This document shows, one piece after another, positions 36,904 to 51,896 of a DNA stretch of 64,000 bases (the stretch's first letter is position 1; every line of letters begins with the position of its first letter). Position numbers and translations under genes: made by a program. The notes under the pieces are model-generated. The model searched no databases. It was not told where the DNA came from and saw only the letters and a program-made list of their open reading frames with translations. The DNA is from Phalacrocorax aristotelis. Lineage: Eukaryota; Chordata; Aves; Suliformes; Phalacrocoracidae. The DNA lies in assembly GCF_949628215.1 (NCBI RefSeq), contig NC_134281.1, forward strand, positions 44,784,512 through 44,848,511, written 5' to 3'.

Positions 36904-39900
36904 CTGCAACGGAGCAGCTGGCGTCAGCAGTGGGGTGGACACCCACAGCAGCACCCAGAGCCCACGGTACAGACCAGGCTGCCAACAAGGGCTCGCAGGT
37001 CTCCCCCCTACCCTCTGCATGCTCAGCCGCACTCTGGCTCAGCTGCCCCCAGCGCAGCTCGGGGAGGGACATGCCCTGCCGATGCACCATGCTTTCACCG
37101 AGGCCCTTCTTTTCCCGGAAAGGGCAGAGCTCTGCTGGGGACCCAGCAGGCAGCCAAGGTCTTTACCTGTGCCCAGCTGGGTGGGCAGCCCGGCCACACT
37201 GTTGGGTGTCTGGAGCCGCTGGTCCTCGGGGAACCACGCCGTGTCCATGACGTTCTTGGTGGCGAAGTGCAGGAGGCGCTGCCGGAGCTCGGCGAGGCTC
37301 AGCTGGGGCTCGGCGCTGAGCAGCATGGCGGCGATGCCTGACAAGAGCCAGGGGGACCGTGGTGAGAACCAGGGGCCACACAGCTGCCTATGCATGACTC
37401 CATCAAGCAACACAACACCAGAGAGACAGGAGAAGGAATCACTGCAGCCCATTATCTGTATGCATGGGATGCAGGAGCTCTGTGCAGGCTGCAGCACCCA
37501 AACATGCCAAAACTGTGGCACCATGGCATGCAAAAATGTCCCCAGCACAGGCAGCCCTGATGCCCTGTGCCTGCAGGAACTCGTGCCCAGCGCTGGCTCA
37601 GGGCAAGTGGAGAGTCATCCCTGCCCGTCACCCCGGAGCCCATCTAACCTGCCACATGTGCAGCTGCCTGCGATGTCCCGCTTTGCGCTGTGAAGCATGT
37701 GCTGCAGTCGCTGGAGGCGCCGATGATGTCGTCCCCCGGGGCAAACAGGTCCACGCAGCGGCCAAAGTTAGTGCCCAGGGTGCCAATGGAGGCAGGTTGG
37801 TCCTTGCTGTTGGTGGCGCCAACTGTGATGACCTGCCAGGGCAGTGACGGAGGGGGACATAGGTGAAATGGGATGCACAGCCCCAGCCCGCTCAGCCAAC
37901 TTGGCATTGGAGCGGATGAGCTTAGGAAGGTGGCAGCATGTCACTGCACACCCCCACGCTTCAGGGAGTCTCCCCCAGCTCGTACCTCTGGCTCAGATGC
38001 TGGAGAGTACAGGCAGGCATCATCCTTGTAGTTACCAGCAGCCGCGACCATCACCACCCCCATCTGCAGCATCCGCCGACAGCCAGCGTTCAGCACACGG
38101 CTGTAGGCACCAGCGAAGGGCAGCAGCACCACCAGCGGCACATAGGGCTGGGCCTCCAGCGTCGCCTTGATAAACTCCAGGCCTGGGGGGGATGAGACAA
38201 GGGACAGGACACTTTCACAGGATGGGGACAAGGCAGGGGGCTCCATGAGAGAGTGCACTCCTCTCTAGGGCATGGGATGACTCACCAATGAGCGTCCCAC
38301 TGATGGTGCCCTTCCCCTGGCAGTTCAGCACACGGAGGCTGCGGATGTTGGCACCTGTGGCCACGCCAGCATCACGCCCACTCAGCACCCCGGCCATGTG
38401 GGTCCCATGGCTGTCACACTTGCTGGCCTGGCACAGACACCATAGTTTCATGCCCCAGCCTATTGCATCAAAGCAGGTTTGCAACATCACAGCGTCCTCC
38501 CCATCCCACCCCACCCCTTGTGCTTTGCACCAGCTAAATCCCACTGCAGAATAAACCTTCAAAAATATTTGAGGTGGGGGGAAAGTAAAAAAAAAAAAAA
38601 AATCATCCCATGCAGAAGGAGAAAAGCTGGCAGAAAGGATGGGGGATGCAGCCAGCCTTCCCCGGGGCTGTGCTAGCACTGGGCTCCCCTACACATGCAG
38701 CGATGCAAACCACGCAAAGCAATGCTAGCACCCACCGCAGGGTGCAGTCAGCCTTCATGGCCCCAGCTGTGGGGTGGATCTTGATTCCTTCTTGCAACAA
38801 CACCTTGACATGTACCCATGCCCCATCCCCGCCTGCTTTCTCTGGAAAGGAGCTCTCCCCCACTCAGCCACAGCCCCAAATAGACTGTGTTGAGGATCTC
38901 AACATCCCCCAGGACCACAGCTCCTACTACTGCGTGTCCTGCCTGGCATTTTGCCATGAGACGAGTGACTCTCCTGTCCTGGGAAGCCCCACAACCCCAT
39001 TTAGGGTTTGGTGGGTGCAGGGGGATGCTCTTGCCAGGCTGCAGCATGAGCACTGTGGGGCTCACCTGCCTGTGGAAGCGGGTGCCGTCCTCCTCAGGGA
39101 CATTCTCAAAGTCGGTCACAAGCACCCTGCCCTCGATCTCTCGATGGGTGCTCTGCACGCTGGTGTCCAGCAGGTAAATCTCCACCAGGTCACCTTTATC
39201 TACCAGGGACAGAGCCAGGGGAAAATGCACCCACCACCGTGGTCAGCCCAGGCTGCCTGGGATGCTCCCAAAATGCAACTCCAGAACCACAGCACCATGG
39301 GATACCCCCATCCCCTTGAGATCAGGAGAGTGGATGGCATCACTGACCCTTACCCTTCCCCGTGGTCCACCCCCCATGCCCCAGCACTTACTGGGAGGGC
39401 TGTAGGCACCCGAGCCAGGCTGCAGCGGCACGATCCTGCCCAGGTTCCATGGGGTGCTCTGGGCAAAGACATAGGCGTCCTCCTCGACATACTCCACGTG
39501 CGGCAGCTTCAGCGCCTGTGGGGAGAAGGCACAGTGCCTGGCGTGGTGGCAAAGCTCCCGTTCCCCACGAGGCTGGGGCTGCCACACCCCCACCAGTGCG
39601 CGCTCTTGCTGCTGCCCCCGCCACGGCCTTCCGCCCCACATACCGTGTCCAGGACGTCGCTGCTCATCTTCACCAGAAAGGCAGGCAGGAGGTGGAAGAC
39701 GTGCAGCAGCTCAGTCAGATATCCCCGCCGAGCCGCCCGGGCCTGCAGCCGCCGCGCCGTGCCTCGCACCTCAGCCTCACCGCTGCCCGGCTGCAGGACC
39801 ACCACGTAGCGCCCGGGCAGCCGCCACGACGCCTGCGGGGGACGCAGGCGCCAGGCTTGGGTTTGGGGAAACACACACGTGCGTGGCCGCCCCCCACCCC

Positions 39901-41953: not shown

Positions 41954-42024
41954 TGCACCAGCCGGGAATCGAACCCGGGTCGCAAGAATGGGAATCTTGC
42001 ATGATACCACTACACCACTGGTGC
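41954..42024 (-). tRNA. tRNA-Gly, anticodon CCC
   Basis: Seventy-one nucleotides fold as a full cloverleaf on the minus strand. The acceptor stem GCACCAG pairs with CTGGTGC, the discriminator is A, the D-arm begins TGGTGTAGTGG (A box), the anticodon stem CAAGA/TCTTG holds the loop TTCCCAT with anticodon CCC (plus-strand GGG at 41990-41992), and the B box is GGTTCGATTCC. There is no intron. It reads GGG codons. It closely matches vertebrate tRNA-Gly-CCC as I remember it, and all stems are intact, so it should be functional. The first minus-strand T run of four or more is TTTTTT at 41867-41872, about 80 bases downstream, so the usual immediate Pol III terminator is missing. Confidence 0.96.
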
Positions 42025-44217: not shown

Positions 44218-47200
44218 TCAGCTTTCAGGCTCAAAAAGGCAGTCACTATCATCGAGCAGAGCATCCGGCCCCTCTTGAAGCCCATAATAGAGGTCATCCT
44301 CCTCCCCGGTGCCTTTGTTGGGGGAACCGGGGTTCTGTCCCGCTGCCGGAGAGCTGGTCGGGGTGCAGCTGGAGCAGGTGGCAGGTGGCAGGGGGGGTCG
44401 GCCCCATGGCATGGGGCTGCTGGGCACAGAGCCCTCCAGCGACGGCGTGTCCATGTCCTCCAGGAGGGATGCCAGTGGCGCGTCCCCTGGGGATGGCTGG
44501 GAGGGGCTGCAGGAACAGAGAGGGCCAAGGGGCAGTGGGCAGGGCTGGGGTTACACTAAACACAGCTGGGCTGGAGCTGGCATTTCCTCTGGAGCTGGTG
44601 GCTCAGCCACCCAGCTCCAGCATTGCTCAGCCAGCATCCCAGCATCACCAGTCCCCTTGCTGGGTGGCTGGGGCACCCCGGGAGGCCCCTGTCTCAGCCA
44701 CTGGTGCCTGCCTTTGTGGGCACAACCCACCCACCAGGTTCCCTCTCCTGCCCGTGGGACAAAGTAGCGGCTGCCCTCGCACGCTGTGCCCGCACCCCAG
44801 GGAGAAAGCAGAGTGCTGTGTGTAGCTGTATTTTGGCGGCGGGGGGGGGTGGCTGGGTCCTACACCCCAAGGCGATCTCCATTGCCTGCAAAGCACCTTT
44901 GGGTTCTCTTGGACCAATGCATGAGCATTATACGTGGCATCTGGTTTGAGGGACACTTACTGAGAGTCTGATTTCTATCAAACTCTGGAAAGGAACTTGG
45001 AATTTATTCCAGTGAGGGACATTGTTCATATTTATAAAATGAAATAAAAGCAAAATGCAAATCACAACCAAAGGCAATCCAGATTTCCTCCTGATTTCAC
45101 CCTGGTAAACAATTTGGTACTGAGAGATCCCGTGGGCTGAGAAACTGTCTGGGCTGCAGCAGGGCTGGGGGGGTCTGCTGGTTGGTGCTCTGTGAGCAGC
45201 AGAGGCAGCTCTGCCTCCGCTCCCTCACCTCATGCTGGGAGTCTGACCCCTGCCCTGGTTTCACCCCACATCCCACCGGTGCCACCCCCAAACCCCACAG
45301 GCCTCACGTACCAGCCACCTGCTGCCATTTCCAATGGAGGCGCTGGCTCTCGGGGGGCGTCGCCAGCACCCCCCAGCTCCCAGTGGACCTCTGCTTTCGC
45401 CTGCACAGCTGGCTGGGAACAGCTGCGGGGTCTGGGCTGGGCCATGGGTGGGAGCGGGGCCGAGCCCACTGCCTGCTTCTGGATCTGCTCGTAGGATGGC
45501 AGGCTTTTCTCGTAGGTGCTGGTGGCCTCTTTTTTGGGGCAGGGTACAATCAAGCTGCAGGCAAAGGAGGAACAGGGTGCTGAGCAGTACCTAAACCCCT
45601 GCAGAGCCAGGAGGTGCTCAGGGACATGCACACAGGACTGCATCAGGTGCTTTAGAGGCCACTGAGGCTACACCACTGCCTATGCCAGCAATGGAGCCAG
45701 CGGGTCCTTGCAGGAGGATGTCCGTAGGGATGCACCTGGATTCTTTGCACCCTCCGGCATTGCTCTAGCTCTGGCTCTGGGGGCTCAGTCAGCTCTTGCC
45801 TCCCCCATCTCGGACCCTGCTTGTCATTTTTTGCTGCAATAGGTGTAGTTGTCCCCAGTGCCAGTGTGCTCAGAAACTGCCCTTGTCCCCAGGGGCATGC
45901 AGATAACTGTGTGTACAGATGAAAACTCCCGCCAAAAGGAAAATGGCCACTGGGGCCGGGCGCTGGGACCTACCGGCTGTCCCTCTCGGGCAGCATGATC
46001 GGTTTGTGGTTCAGGAACCGCTCAGCCTCGACGTCCACGGGGACAAACGTTACCTGGGGCGAAAAGAAACGCAGAGCCTGGGTGGCCGCACTGGGTATCG
46101 TAGGGACCCTCGGCCCTTGCTAGTGGTAAAAAGTGCAGGGTGCCCCTTCATCTGGATCTTTGGTTATTTCTCAGCACATTTGGATGTCTTGCTTAGAAAT
46201 TGGTTTTTTTGGGGGGAAATCAATAAGGAATTGAATAAGCCAGTGCTGCCTCACCCTCAGCTCCTTGACTCAGGTTCATGTTTGTCCCTGAGCCCAGGGT
46301 GGGTCCCAGGGCCCTCGGGAGAGGTCAGTGACCAGGGACAACACCGAGGGTGCCCTGTCCTTGAGCCCCGAGCACAGTGACAAAGCCACATCTCCCTCCT
46401 CACCAGGGCTGAGCTTGCCTTTAAGGGGAGCTGGGGTCAGCTTCACCCTAGTCCCAGGGGACTCGGCCAGTCCCAGGGGTCCCAGCTGATCCCCGGTCCT
46501 GGGGTCCCATGCACCACCCCACATTTTGGTGTGCAGCCAAGCTGTTGATGGACCATTCTGCAGCGCTGAGGCCAGCCTCACAGCTGCTGTCTCCTTGGAA
46601 AAAAGCCTCTTCTGCCAGCTCTGTTTCCCAGGGCAGGGACGCGTGGCTGCCCTGCTGTGCCGGCAGTGCCCTCTGCCAAGGAGACCAGTAGGTGAGTGCT
46701 GTGCTCGGGGGCAGCCAGGCACCTCCAGACCTCCAGAGTCATGACAGCCCCTTCTTCTGAAGTCTTGGGAGCCTGCTGAGCTTCTGGTCCCCACAGGTGC
46801 AAGGAAGGGGCTGGTTTGGGGGGGATTTGCATGGGAGAGATGAACACAAGCTGATTTCCTAGGGCTTATTCCCCGCTGCTTGCTTGGCAAAGCCCCAGGG
46901 TCGGGGAGGTGCAGGGGCAGAGGGTGCAAAGGAGCAGGGCCACATCCTGCAAGCACTAGCAGGGAGCTGGAGCAGGGCAAGAGACCCCAGATCAACACTT
47001 CCCCCTCCAGATTGCCCCAGCAGCTTTCCCCTGGGACCTGCTGCTACCCCACCCTATGGATGAGGAAACTGAGGCACAGCCCAAGGCTACACGTCTGCAG
47101 TAGCAAAGTGGGACAAGGAGCTGAAGCCACCCAAACCCATCTGAGCCCTCAAGCCCCCCGAGGCGTGCAGCGGCAGGATGGACCGTACCTTCGGGTAGCA

Positions 47201-47365
47201 CTGGCACATGCTCCAGGTGATGCCCACAGCTACAAGCAGGACACCCAGGGTGCAGAACGTGATGTAGATCTGGGGCTTTTCCACGCTCATGATGAACATT
47301 CCCGTCATCACCAGGAAGAAGCCCAGCATGATGAACCCATAGCGAAAGGTCTTCTCCTCGGCCAT
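44218..47365 (-). CDS. BSND: Barttin, ClC-K chloride channel beta subunit, complete, 4 exons
   Basis: Two-helix membrane protein needed for trafficking and gating of ClC-Ka/Kb channels in kidney tubule and inner ear. Exons in gene order: 47189-47365, 45974-46053, 45312-45554, 44218-44506; phases 0, 2, 2 agree and give 262 residues (human 320). I chose ATG 47363-47365 ([11 protein letters not shown]), which gives a 59-residue first exon exactly as in human; an in-frame GTG two codons upstream is not needed. Helices are roughly residues 9-27 and 33-53. R8 and G10, sites of Bartter mutations in human, are kept, as are the palmitoylated Cys pair in MCQCYPK. The C-terminus is acidic and ends [10 protein letters not shown]...LFEPES like human. 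The middle of exon 3 is Pro-rich and poorly conserved, which explains the shorter length. Confidence 0.95.
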
Positions 47366-48699
47366 GGCCACTGGGTGGGAGAGGCAGGGGAGGAGAGATG
47401 CCGGTAAGTCCGTTTACCTGGGGCTGCTGCCCACTGAGCACACCTCCGGGGTAAAGCAAGGAGTGGTTTCTTTCTCTGGAGGCTGCCAGGGGCTGAGGAT
47501 CAGCTGCACGTTGAGCCTGGTCCTGCCCAGGGCTGAGCCAGCCAGTTTTTAATGGGTTTGTAATGAATGCAAACACTGACCCGCTGTTCACACTCCAGTG
47601 AAGCTGCCCGGCCTGTGTCCGGGTAACCTTCCCTGCAGGCACACGCAGCTGGACCCCACTCCTGGGGAAGGGGGTGGGGAGGGGCATGGCAGCAGAGACA
47701 GGGACCCTGAGAGTGGCTGGTCCCAACAGGACCTTCCCAGCCCTGGGGGCTGGAGCTGACTTGGCCATAAATCAGAGCTGGTAAAGCCCCAAAATAAGGG
47801 GGATGCCAGGTTGCAGCATGCTTTCAAGGGCTGAGGGACTGCAGCAGGGGAGGAGGGAGTGCTCCTGGCTCTTTTTGGAGACGAGTGGGTTGGGAATAGC
47901 CCCCACCTGGCAATGGCTGGGGGCTGGAGAACCATTAGTGGGGCTGCCTCAGTGGGAGCTAAAGCCACATAAGGATGAAGCAGGGTCTGTCCTCCCAGGG
48001 GAGTGAGGACATAGTGACCGTGTGCCCTGTGTTTGCTTGAGATGGAGCAGGGGTGTTAAAAGGTGTCCCCTTCACACCACACATCTGAAAGCCAGACAGT
48101 AGTAGTAGCTTTAATTAGCCTTCATTTCGTCCCCTTGCTTGCCCCCCTATGTGGGAAAGCATGTACCTGGCTTAAGAAAAAATAAGTAATATGTTATATT
48201 TGGCTGTGGCTCCACAGCCACTCTGCAGCCCTGCAGGTCCGCAGGGGACCCAGGGCAACCCATTATTTCAGTAGGATGGAGTAACTGGCAGCAGCCCCTG
48301 ATGAATTTGCCATTTTCTCTGGGCAAGGCTGCAATGGTGGGCATGGTGGGCAGGGAGGGGGGGATGAGCCACTCAGAGTGTCTTTTTATAGGATACTGCC
48401 TGAAATGCCAAGTGCACTTGGATGCCCTGAACACACACACGAGCCACTGAACATCTCTAAACCAAATCAAGTGAGGCATGGGAGTCAGTATGCAGGGAAA
48501 GCAAGGTGAAAGGGATGGAGATATGTCTGGAAGGGGCATTGAAAAGGCAGCAGAGCGAACGGGTCAGCACGGAGCTGTTTTTTCTCCAGCTGGATTCCTT
48601 GTTCTTTGCTGCAGTTTTTGTTATACAGCTCTTACTTCAAGTGGGCAGCCCTGGCCTGATATGAGCTTCCCAGGGTTGGTCAGAGAAGGGAATGCAAAA
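47366..48699. other. BSND upstream region
   Basis: Between the BSND start codon and the TMEM61 poly(A) region. It must hold the BSND promoter and 5' UTR, but I see no clear TATA box or CpG island. A pyrimidine tract ending CCCAG directly before the ATG (about 47368-47390) resembles a splice acceptor, so a non-coding 5' exon is possible. Confidence 0.45.
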
Positions 48700-48719
48700 C
48701 ATCTGCAACAAGCAGTGGT

Positions 48720-48725
48720 TTTATT
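48720..48725 (-). terminator. TMEM61: TMEM61 polyadenylation signal
   Basis: TTTATT on the plus strand reads AATAAA in the gene direction, 233 bases after the TMEM61 stop, and is followed downstream by GT-rich sequence (TGTTTTGCATT). It gives a short 3' UTR of about 250 bases ending near 48700. Confidence 0.75.
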
Positions 48726-48957
48726 AAAAATATGAAGGCTTTCAAACATGCCAGTTACCCCTTCCGCTCTGAACATATTGCTCACTGGACCCACAATCCC
48801 GACAGCCCTGGACTGATCGTTTGGAAAGCCAGACAGACCCCACCGCCTTTCCTGTCTTTGCCCACCCTCCTCTCACCCCGGCAATGGAAGGGGCTCAGTT
48901 TAAAGCCAAGGGACTGGGCAGCCACCCGCAGAGTCCCAGCTCCCCGCTGCTGCCCGC

Positions 48958-51896
48958 TCAGATGCCCCGGATGCTGATGTTTTCATAGCTGGGGGGAGGC
49001 GTTGCCTGCAGCTCCCCGAGGCGCTGGGTCTCCAGCCAGGATGGGCTGGGGCGGAACAAGGCGCTGTCGGAGGAGCTGCGCCGGCGGCCACCCTGCCAGC
49101 TGTCATCCTCCTCCAGGTAGCGGTACAGGGGTGGTGTGAGCTCCTCCTTCCTCCTCGGAGGCTGGACATAGGCTGGAGCGCTATGGGCAGGTCTGCAGGT
49201 CAGAGCTTCTTCATAGGTGGGGATGGCGCTGGCATCCCAGGTGCTGTGAGAGAAGAAGAAGAAACCCAGCAGCACACCCTGTCAACCAGAGCATCCCAGC
49301 ACCCATCAACTGGAGCATCCCAGTGCCCTATCAATCCCATCAGCTGGAGCATCCCTGAGCATGATAGACATGTGTGTGCTCGGGAAAGCACATGAGCAGG
49401 TTCTGCATGCCCAGAGTCAAGGGAAGACCATGTCAGCTGCTTCCCAGCACCAGGAGGGTGGGGAACCACACAGAAGGAAGGGCATGATCCATCAGACCTT
49501 GCAGCAAGGCAACGTTGCCCAGTTCCCACTGAGTTTATTAACCCCTCACCCAAGAAGAGGAACGCAGCCTGGCAGGGCAGCTTCAAAGAGCTGCCACGTC
49601 TGGCATTAAGAGCTACAACTGTACGTGTGGCTGACCACGAAGCAGCAGAGGTGCTGGCTCTCAAGACATCTGCTCCCCCCATTCTGCACCACACTGCTTC
49701 CCACGGGCAGGAGTGCATCCTCATCACCTGCCTAACCCCAAAGTCACCCCATGAAGCACAAAGGCTGCCAGCAGCTGAGTGAGCAGTTTGGCACAAGCAG
49801 CCAGGCGAGAGCCAGGTGTCCTGGTTCAATGTGGTTGCACCCCACCCTTGTGCCTGCCAGAGCTCTCCATGCACCAGCCAAGCCTGGTGCCACTTCCAGC
49901 AGCGCTTCACTGAGCAAATGCAGCTTGTGTACAGGGAAATCCTCCACCCAATCTTTGCCCTGCGCACAGCCCCACACGCCACCCTACAAAATGGCGCAGC
50001 CCCGAAGATGGGGAAGCTTTGAAATCGACAACCATCCACTTGCTTTTGCAGATGAAAACCCAGCAAGTCATGCCTGGGGAGGCCACAGGCATTGGAGGGG
50101 CACAGCTGGTCTGAAGGGAAAGCTGCCTTGCTCTGCAGGTATGCCTCTATCCCAAATTCAGCAACCGCTTGTCCCAGACCTACTGTCCTGGGCATCCGCA
50201 GCTGTGCCTTTTGCCAAACAGCCTCATCTTGCAAAGGGATGCTGCCTTGGAAATGCAGAGAGGGCGGTTTCTCCCAGCACAGGATGTCATGCCGCCAACC
50301 CTCTGCGGAGCAGCGTTTTCTGCTTTGGAGGGCTTTGCTGTGCGAATGCCAGCACAGCTGGGGCTGCAGGAGCTGCTGCTGCACGAGCAATGGTGGGGTA
50401 ATGCCTTCCCATCCAGCACAGGAGCTGGGAGCTCCAAGAAGGGGACATTCCCCATGGGGGACACAGCAAAGCCCTCTGTGGGAAGAGGAAGCTCCCCCCA
50501 GACTGCCCAGACCAGTTTACAATCTCACCCCCAAATATTCAGATGGGCACCAAAACCCCCAGAGAACCAGGAACGTGCCTCTCACCCCGACTGAATTTTT
50601 ATGGTTTAATATTCTTAAGAGTTTCTTTTAGCTGCTTTTCCCCAGAGCCTGATCTATGCCGAAGCCAGGATCTTTGCTGTGACCCCATAAAACAGCATTG
50701 GGAAGGGCTGGCTGGCGCGGTTTCCACAGTGGTCTCTGGAAAAAACCCCTTTTGATCATAAAACTTTTAAATCAAGAAGTGGGAATAAATCTCAGACTCA
50801 CACAGGAAGAGTCTGGTGACCTGACAAGCAGCAGTGGTGTTTGGGGGGGGGTGAGGGGTCTTTCCCAAAATGGGCTTCGTAGTGTAAGAGAACAACCCCC
50901 CTTTGCAAAGAAGGGGTATTGTAAAGGGACCCTCCACCTGCACTCCCATCTGAATGTCAACCCAAGGATTATCATCTTCCTACTTTTTTTCTTTTAACTC
51001 CCTTTTAACATAGATTTTGTTTCCATTAAAGATGGCACCAACCCCATCACCAACCCCATCATCCTCACAGAGCACTGCAGACCTGTGGCACCGGGGAAGG
51101 TTTCTACAGCTGGAGGTCCGGATGTTCCCCCCACCCCCAGATTCAGGCTCTCTGCCAGAAAACCAATGCGGACTTCTGCTCGGTGGCTCTGCTAAGGAGA
51201 TGTGTGCCTTGGCCAGTGATGGCCCTGCAGGGCAAGGAGAGCCATCTGCGGCTCAGCTGGCTGCAGGAGCAGCCAGCGTGGGCACAGAGAGTCCCTGCAG
51301 GGAGGGGAGGGTGTGGGGGCTCAGGCGAGGGTTGACACTAATGAGCAAGAGCTGCTGCTCAGGGAGCAGGAGGAGAGCACAGAACAGGGGATGAGCAGTG
51401 GCCGACAGCACAGCAGCTTTACTGCTCATCTGAGCTCGCCTGTGAGCAAGCCTAAGAGCAGGTTTAGGTACATGGGCATACCAGGACAGTCAAACCCACC
51501 CTTGACTTCTTCCCACCCAAGCACCGCGCGGGGACATGGCACCCACCTGCAGTTCCACTTCTCCAGAGGCTCCGCAGTGAAGTACTGCAGGTCCCTGGGG
51601 AAATGGTACTGGTAGCGGCGGGAGACCACCCTGGCGTTGGCTTTCACAGACCAGAGGAGCCCGAAGAGGAGGAGGATGCCACCAATGCCGCAGCAGAAGA
51701 AGCTGACGGAGCGGAGCAGGGCGCTGGAGGATGAGCTGGGAACCGCCTCAGCTTCCTGGGGAGGCAGGAGGCGAGCCCCGCTGCTGGCCGGGGCGCCCAC
51801 CTCCCCGTCGCTCCACCAGGCAAAGCACAGCGTTCCCGTCACCAGCAGCACGGCACCGGTGATGGTCATGCCATAGCGGAAAGAGGCAGCTGCCAT
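48958..51896 (-). CDS. TMEM61: Transmembrane protein 61, two coding exons
   Basis: Function unknown. Coding exons 51547-51896 and 48958-49243 join in phase 2 to give 211 residues (human 210). Helix 1 is about residues 8-28 (YGMTITGAVLLVTGTLCFAW), then an extracellular or lumenal Pro/Ser loop, then helix 2 about residues 64-84 (VSFFCCGIGGILLLFGLLWS). The tail has IPTYEEAL, TPPLYRYLEEDD, a basic-Ser patch (GGRRRSSSDSALF) and PPPSYENISI near the end. PPLY and PPSY fit PPxY ligands of NEDD4-type WW domains. The ATG 51894-51896 starts MAAASFRYGM; human has a slightly longer N-terminus. The 5' UTR continues to an acceptor (TCTTGTCTTGCAG) before 51957, so at least one non-coding exon lies further upstream. 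Same orientation as BSND and PCSK9. Confidence 0.94.
49283..49365 (+). repeat. Short degenerate tandem repeat in the TMEM61 intron
   Basis: Three copies of a unit like CAACTGGAGCATCCCAG, starting at 49283, 49307 and 49341, with period 24-34. It lies just upstream (gene direction) of the acceptor of the last TMEM61 exon. Confidence 0.65.

Follow-up and report, generated by a model that had tools for sequence, protein, structure and literature searches.

Barttin, the protein encoded by BSND, is the helper (beta-subunit) of the ClC-K chloride channels of the kidney and inner ear, and is needed both for hearing and for salt handling by the kidney. In the window analysed here, a 64,000-nucleotide stretch of the genome of the cormorant Phalacrocorax aristotelis, BSND lies beside TMEM61, and the locus raises the question of whether these neighbours share an ancestor. 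The original prediction proposed that they are tandem paralogues retaining an ancient intron, and that this origin might be undescribed. The accessible parts of the open-licence literature accord with the latter suggestion: they name TMEM61 and BSND as genes of one locus, and no account of kinship between the two was found there, nor was any relative of barttin found to be proposed in the open-licence literature searched. One comparative study detected one barttin protein per species across all the vertebrates that it covered (PMC5041087). The reading favoured here, with moderate confidence, is that a two-helix gene duplicated in early vertebrates gave rise to both TMEM61 and BSND, with a putative accessory-subunit mechanism for TMEM61.

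The DNA confirms that the genes are adjacent and in tandem on the same (minus) strand, with TMEM61 (51896-48958) followed downstream by BSND (47365-44218). All four introns, three in BSND and one in TMEM61, have GT-AG boundaries, and the models comprise the following features.

51547..51896, minus strand: TMEM61 coding exon 1, encoding residues 1-116 plus two bases of codon 117 (splice model)
49244..51546, minus strand: TMEM61 phase-2 intron, GT-AG, 35 residues after W82 (splice model)
48958..49243, minus strand: TMEM61 coding exon 2, with IPTYEEA, PPLY and PPPSYE motifs and the stop (splice model)
47189..47365, minus strand: BSND coding exon 1, residues 1-59, with FRYG helix 1 and then helix 2
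46054..47188, minus strand: BSND intron 1, phase 0 after K59, without a counterpart in TMEM61 (splice model)
45974..46053, minus strand: BSND coding exon 2, encoding residues 60-85 plus two bases of codon 86
45555..45973, minus strand: BSND intron 2, phase 2 (R86), the counterpart of the TMEM61 intron (splice model)
45312..45554, minus strand: BSND coding exon 3, with the LPSYEQI motif (splice model)
44507..45311, minus strand: BSND intron 3, phase 2 (C167) (splice model)
44218..44506, minus strand: BSND coding exon 4, with the acidic tail, EEDDLYYGL...FEPES and the stop

The whole TMEM61 protein matches Pfam PF15105 (E 5.8e-48, 163.6 bits against a cut-off of 30.1) and the whole BSND protein PF15462 (E 5.5e-22), and the corresponding entries from Phalacrocorax carbo differ at one of 211 residues in TMEM61 (P0001) and four of 262 in BSND (P0121). 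With 262 residues in BSND and 211 in TMEM61 in the splice models, the predicted likeness in length holds only roughly. The predicted motifs are present: coding exon 1 of TMEM61 encodes the FRYG helix 1, a loop, and helix 2 with GLLWS at its end; FRYG is likewise present in BSND, where the second hydrophobic stretch ends in GITWS; and the sequences beyond the phase-2 intron include LPSYEQI in BSND and IPTYEEA in TMEM61. Both split codons are in phase 2, and the distance from tryptophan to intron is 35 residues in each cormorant gene, from W51 to R86 in BSND and from W82 to S117 in TMEM61, exactly as had been claimed. The count of a single extra BSND intron was incorrect, as there are two further ones, in phase 0 after K59 and in phase 2 within C167, and neither of these, introns 1 and 3, has a match in TMEM61.

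Downstream of BSND, an exon of subtilase type (38215-38688, minus strand) falls just below the PF00082 cut-off (E 1.5e-4, 21.7 against 21.8 bits), and by our reading belongs to PCSK9, in agreement with the human gene order. One report places TMEM61, BSND, PCSK9 and USP24 on that side of DHCR24 in humans (PMC9139953), and hence TMEM61 and BSND were adjacent before birds and mammals diverged. Between BSND and the PCSK9-type exon, both Rfam (64.8 bits) and ARAGORN identify a tRNA-Gly gene (anticodon CCC; window positions 41954-42024, minus strand). Upstream of TMEM61, at around 55.7-56.6 kb of the window, both strands carry long GC-rich reading frames that overlap and resemble, by eye, a CpG-island promoter.

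Profile similarity between barttin and TMEM61

The barttin profile is narrow, because the matches listed were mainly from birds: the first search supplied the best 120 of 401 matches, all avian, and the second 120 of 185, mostly birds with a few crocodilians and turtles, and no mammals or fish among those listed. The resulting set contained birds and reptiles only, plus one human sequence, and had an effective number near 2. A motif filter, requiring the FR and PxYE patterns of TMEM61 rows, removed 40 of 120 TMEM61 and six of 152 barttin rows, and since the filter itself demands these motifs, they are not countable on the filtered TMEM61 set. After three further barttin models had been discarded for faulty tails, and near-identical rows thinned, 62 TMEM61 and 132 barttin rows were left; the human-added comparison used 143 unthinned barttin rows and the human sequence, and counts of the FRYG arginine and of GxxWS start from all 120 TMEM61 and 152 barttin rows.

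The arginine is close to invariant, occurring in all 116 TMEM61 rows in which the segment was located (it was not located in four of the 120), and of the 152 barttin rows 151 have it; we take the TMEM61 residue to correspond to barttin R8, a Bartter IV site. The glycine matching barttin G10 is replaced by cysteine in 12 and alanine in one of the 116 TMEM61 rows, and G10, itself a disease site, by alanine in 11 of 152 barttin rows. A fixed pattern detected LPSYE in 131 of the 152 barttin rows, from birds and reptiles, where human barttin presumably has LPDFS. One or two copies of (L/P)PxY were found in the tails of all 68 near-full-length TMEM61 sequences, a count biased by their coming from the filtered set, for which PxYE was demanded.

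Comparison of the 132-row barttin and 62-row TMEM61 profiles with hhalign gave Prob 45-47, E 2e-4 and a score of 34.9, with columns 6-52 placed on 5-83, such that the alignment spanned the longer TMEM61 loop and both hydrophobic stretches were in register. With the N-terminal parts only, Prob was 56 and the aligned stretch was a different one (38-109 on 69-129), running from helix 2 to the end of the PxYE motif. Adding human barttin to the 143 rows gave Prob 66, and using it as the reference Prob 77 (E 2e-5), while smaller alignments of 22 and 33 rows gave Prob 12 (E 2.4e-3) in an unchanged register. Across 100 half-samples without the human sequence the median Prob was 40 (5-95% range 13-79), with the arginines paired in 96, the tryptophans in 69, and both in 65.

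Such a match might arise were these unrelated two-helix proteins of similar composition, each with a common PxYE/PPxY tail motif, that became neighbours by chance and have a coincident intron, which we consider unlikely. Control comparisons mostly fell below the observed score. Reversed profiles reached 23.6 and 24.6, compared with 34.9, and shuffling columns within helices and loops yielded a score of at least 34.64 in none of one 300 and one of another, although that one, at 36.7, exceeded the observed value; in the version with the human sequence as reference, none of 400 shuffles reached 42.1, the maximum being 34.2. None of the 316 hairpins of Escherichia coli K-12 scored above 20.5 on the barttin profile or above 23.6 on that of TMEM61, and all were exceeded by 61 of 62 single TMEM61 sequences with the former and 11 of 14 barttins with the latter (14 of 144 having been run singly), bearing in mind that orthologues are not independent and that bacterial hairpins differ in composition from those of vertebrates. 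The human hairpins CD9, CD81, claudin-1, PMP22 and TMEM174 scored only 12.7-18.7 with the two profiles; in that comparison, shuffles of single sequences went no higher than 31.2.

The family-level searches speak for unrelated proteins. HMMER cross-scores established no significant link, the best being 11.7 bits (E 1.9) and 12.7 bits (E 0.78) at a database size of 177,635 sequences, with medians of 5.8 and 4.3 bits and best decoys of 7.8 and 8.1; at E up to 1, Pfam Barttin matched none of 33 TMEM61 sequences, and Pfam TMEM61 none of 22 barttins. The Pfam Barttin match starts at residue 27 or 28 in every barttin whose matched stretch was shown, and hence this model is silent on helix 1. PF15462 thereby omits helix 1 together with the R8 and G10 disease sites, and may hide relatives that share this helix. 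A sequence search of solved structures returned no relative of barttin or TMEM61, with one chance match for BSND (E 0.16) and none for TMEM61. AlphaFold places helices at residues 2-29 and 57-94 of TMEM61, and 3-27 and 31-55 of BSND, in low-confidence models (mean pLDDT 48.5 and 54.0), and a helical hairpin matches too many folds to count as evidence of kinship. A further point for unrelated proteins is TMEM174, which matches neither profile and yet, we assume, also combines two helices with a PPYEE tail.

The profile similarity expected by the original prediction was therefore present in register, and beyond the reversed, shuffled and real-hairpin controls, but it was weak, sensitive to alignment size, and not significant at the scale of a database. 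It is suggestive rather than proof, and makes a common origin of TMEM61 and BSND plausible but not proven.

Intron phase and spacing across species

The conservation of the intron in other species was assessed from protein models that run into introns, and from isoforms. Two alligator barttin isoforms (P0264 and P0270) differ at one place, just before the PxYE region, where one has cysteine and the other WYVCKS, five residues more. The swap reflects alternative splicing. Assuming canonical splice sites, the protein sequences are compatible only with a phase-2 junction at C90, which lies 39 residues beyond W51. In a flycatcher barttin model (P0271) the departure from the normal sequence comes at position 86, the same place as the cormorant boundary.

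The TMEM61 boundary could be followed more widely and is well conserved: of the 40 listed rows that did not belong to the full-length set, 29 diverge, judged by eye, from the spliced sequence at the split codon. These comprise 19 birds, one crocodilian-like entry, three turtles, four squamate-like entries and two marsupials; roughly half of the birds, and all of the crocodilian-like and squamate-like entries, were assigned via their nearest named relative. They either continue into the intron or have a different exon there, with arginine replacing serine, as expected from AG|G instead of AG|C. A script recovered 24 of the 29, every one 35 residues after the tryptophan; by eye, the distance was 35 in one marsupial and 33 in the four squamate-like entries. 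Many database models of TMEM61 (P0053, P0058, P0060-P0063, P0066, P0074, P0088, P0096 and others) end in false tails because an odd exon or the phase-2 intron has been kept in them, and such tails are helpful for locating exon boundaries and harmful for annotation.

Hence the notion of an ancient shared intron held in part. Its phase and neighbourhood are kept, whereas the exact distance of 35 residues in both genes is confined to part of the tree, and was not retained as evidence, given the departures in alligator barttin (39) and squamate-like TMEM61 (33). This inconstant spacing is a point for separate origins, as is the absence of LPSYE from human barttin. By simple arithmetic, the chance of an exact match in spacing to one of three barttin introns is about 0.5%, and that of the same phase within four codons about 4%, which lends mild support to common origin.

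TMEM51, TMEM252 and TMEM139 as candidate relatives

The kinship of TMEM61 may extend beyond its neighbour. Pfam TMEM51 (PF15345) matched 21 of 33 TMEM61s at E up to 1 (best 1e-6), with cormorant TMEM61 at 14.1 bits, and three of seven TMEM61s scanned singly passed its curated cut-off of 25.5 bits (25.9, 29.1 and 26.4); these three (P0035, P0082 and P0091, from a turtle, a caecilian and a coelacanth) were chosen as being already labelled TMEM51 in the database, alone among the 120 rows listed. TMEM51, TMEM252 and TMEM139 were each compared as a single human sequence. Thus represented, TMEM51 matched Pfam TMEM61 at 1e-3, slightly behind its match to RCR, an unrelated-looking family (5.4e-4), and hhalign aligned it with TMEM61 across the two helices and PSYEE at Prob 87, a level attained by none of 60 shuffles. 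Unlike TMEM61 and barttin, this human protein has neither FRYG nor WS, and its gene is presumably not adjacent to BSND. On these comparisons TMEM51 appears to be the clearest relative of TMEM61, being better supported than barttin, and hence the prediction of a BSND-TMEM61 pair was too narrow.

The barttin profile aligned with TMEM252 (PF15664) over both helices through GIFWS, scoring 35.0 for the whole protein and 29.7 for the N-terminal part, and TMEM252 also has PAYEES in its tail. None of 60 shuffles of TMEM252 itself scored as high as 29.7, which lies above 61 of the 62 single TMEM61 sequences on the N-terminal barttin profile, but shuffles of another sequence reached 31.2, so the score is within the range of shuffled sequences. 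Barttin therefore seems to match TMEM252 about as well as it does TMEM61, while its scores with TMEM51 (14.4) and TMEM139 (13.9) were at the level of noise. TMEM139 scored 29.3 and 35.8 with TMEM61 (Prob 39-61), resembling it in helix 2 and in VPVYEEA (compare IPTYEEA), with helix 1 unaligned. At E up to 10, Pfam gave human TMEM139 a single match, to TMEM51, and a weak one (E 0.042). Human TMEM174 was rejected as a relative, its scores being at noise level with both profiles. According to one study, TMEM139 binds E-cadherin and protects it from lysosomal degradation (PMC12841848).

Taken together, BSND and TMEM61 may not form a closed pair, and their link could instead be a single edge within a wider and looser family, with the edges involving barttin the weakest. 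One account of this pattern, which we consider unlikely, is that both genes belong to a broad, loose family of proteins with two helices and a PxYE tail without being duplicates of one another, TMEM61 grouping with TMEM51 and BSND with TMEM252, and their adjacency having some other history. The TMEM61-TMEM51 matches in both directions fit this account, as do the three TMEM61s above the TMEM51 cut-off and the difference between barttin's scores with TMEM252 and TMEM51. However, a tandem duplication preceding genome duplication, with TMEM51 as the genome-duplication copy of TMEM61, predicts the same pattern, and hence descent of TMEM61 and BSND from one gene is left standing; moreover, this grouping depends on single sequences, on a TMEM51 that matched RCR slightly better than TMEM61, and on a TMEM252 score that shuffles surpassed.

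Under descent of TMEM61 and BSND from one gene, TMEM51, and perhaps TMEM252 and TMEM139, would come from the same ancestral stock. We take human TMEM252 to lie near PGM5 and FOXD4 genes at 9q21, and BSND-TMEM61 at 1p32, the chromosome arm that also carries PGM1 and FOXD3, positions that would fit an origin by genome duplication. A bolder version would unite BSND, TMEM61, TMEM51, TMEM252 and perhaps TMEM139 in a single family of vertebrate accessory subunits, each with two helices and a PxYE tail, generated by early tandem and genome duplications, with TMEM61 as a second channel or transporter helper in the FOXI1-type ionocytes that use barttin. This version is tentative and less likely than not, all the more so because barttin is at noise with TMEM51 and TMEM139, and shuffles reach the TMEM252 score. 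No report linking barttin with TMEM51, TMEM252, TMEM61 or TMEM139 was found in the open-licence literature. Were this family real, several uncharacterised TMEM genes would share one hypothesis, and barttin would be no orphan.

Possible function of TMEM61 and comparison with barttin

The segment that the two proteins have in common coincides with the part of barttin that matters. In one study, truncation after residue 72 left ClC-K/barttin function almost unaffected (PMC4188032); R8L, G10S and G47R are pathogenic, R8L abolishing ClC-K transport without preventing membrane insertion (PMC6206076). With R8L and G10S pathogenic and the truncation nearly harmless, the shared part is the working part. 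The same source also describes altered processing of ClC-5 by barttin (PMC6206076).

TMEM61 is, by analogy, probably a two-helix accessory subunit of some channel or transporter. Both ends of the protein would be cytoplasmic, the hairpin would pack on the membrane part of the partner, and TMEM61 would aid that partner's exit from the ER and its gating, as barttin does for ClC-K. As (L/P)PxY motifs bind WW domains, those in the TMEM61 tail could recruit WW-domain ubiquitin ligases or sorting adaptors, and thereby set the amount at the surface. ClC-K itself seems a less likely partner, since it already has barttin as its helper and since TMEM61 is without the MCQCYPK segment, the two cysteines of which we take to be palmitoylated in barttin.

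A likely setting would be the FOXI1-type ionocyte, which also uses barttin/ClC-K. In published work, TMEM61 is upregulated with FOXI1 and ASCL3 in the ionocytes of thymic tumours (PMC11558144), beyond which no report of TMEM61 in ionocytes was found in the open-licence literature; it is downregulated in clear-cell kidney tumours (PMC5015219); airway ionocytes require basolateral barttin/ClC-K for chloride absorption (PMC10575720, which makes no mention of TMEM61); and the chicken inner ear expresses both barttin and CLC-K (PMC5041087). If TMEM61 is a paralogue of barttin, it gains its first testable role, and the two would offer a natural comparison of the hairpin residues that bind a partner with those that confer specificity for ClC-K.

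Set against barttin as the known system, TMEM61 has a loop some 32 residues longer and one coding intron rather than three, and is without a Pfam Barttin match or a known ClC partner. MCQCYPK is absent after helix 2 of cormorant TMEM61, which has WSVKANA in its place, and neither this protein nor the TMEM61 alignment A2 has the DLYYG...FEP C-terminal end. What the two have in common is a pair of N-terminal helices, predicted with low confidence, the first opened by FRxG and the second closed by G-x2-WS, a phase-2 intron ahead of a motif of PxYE type, and their position as neighbouring genes.
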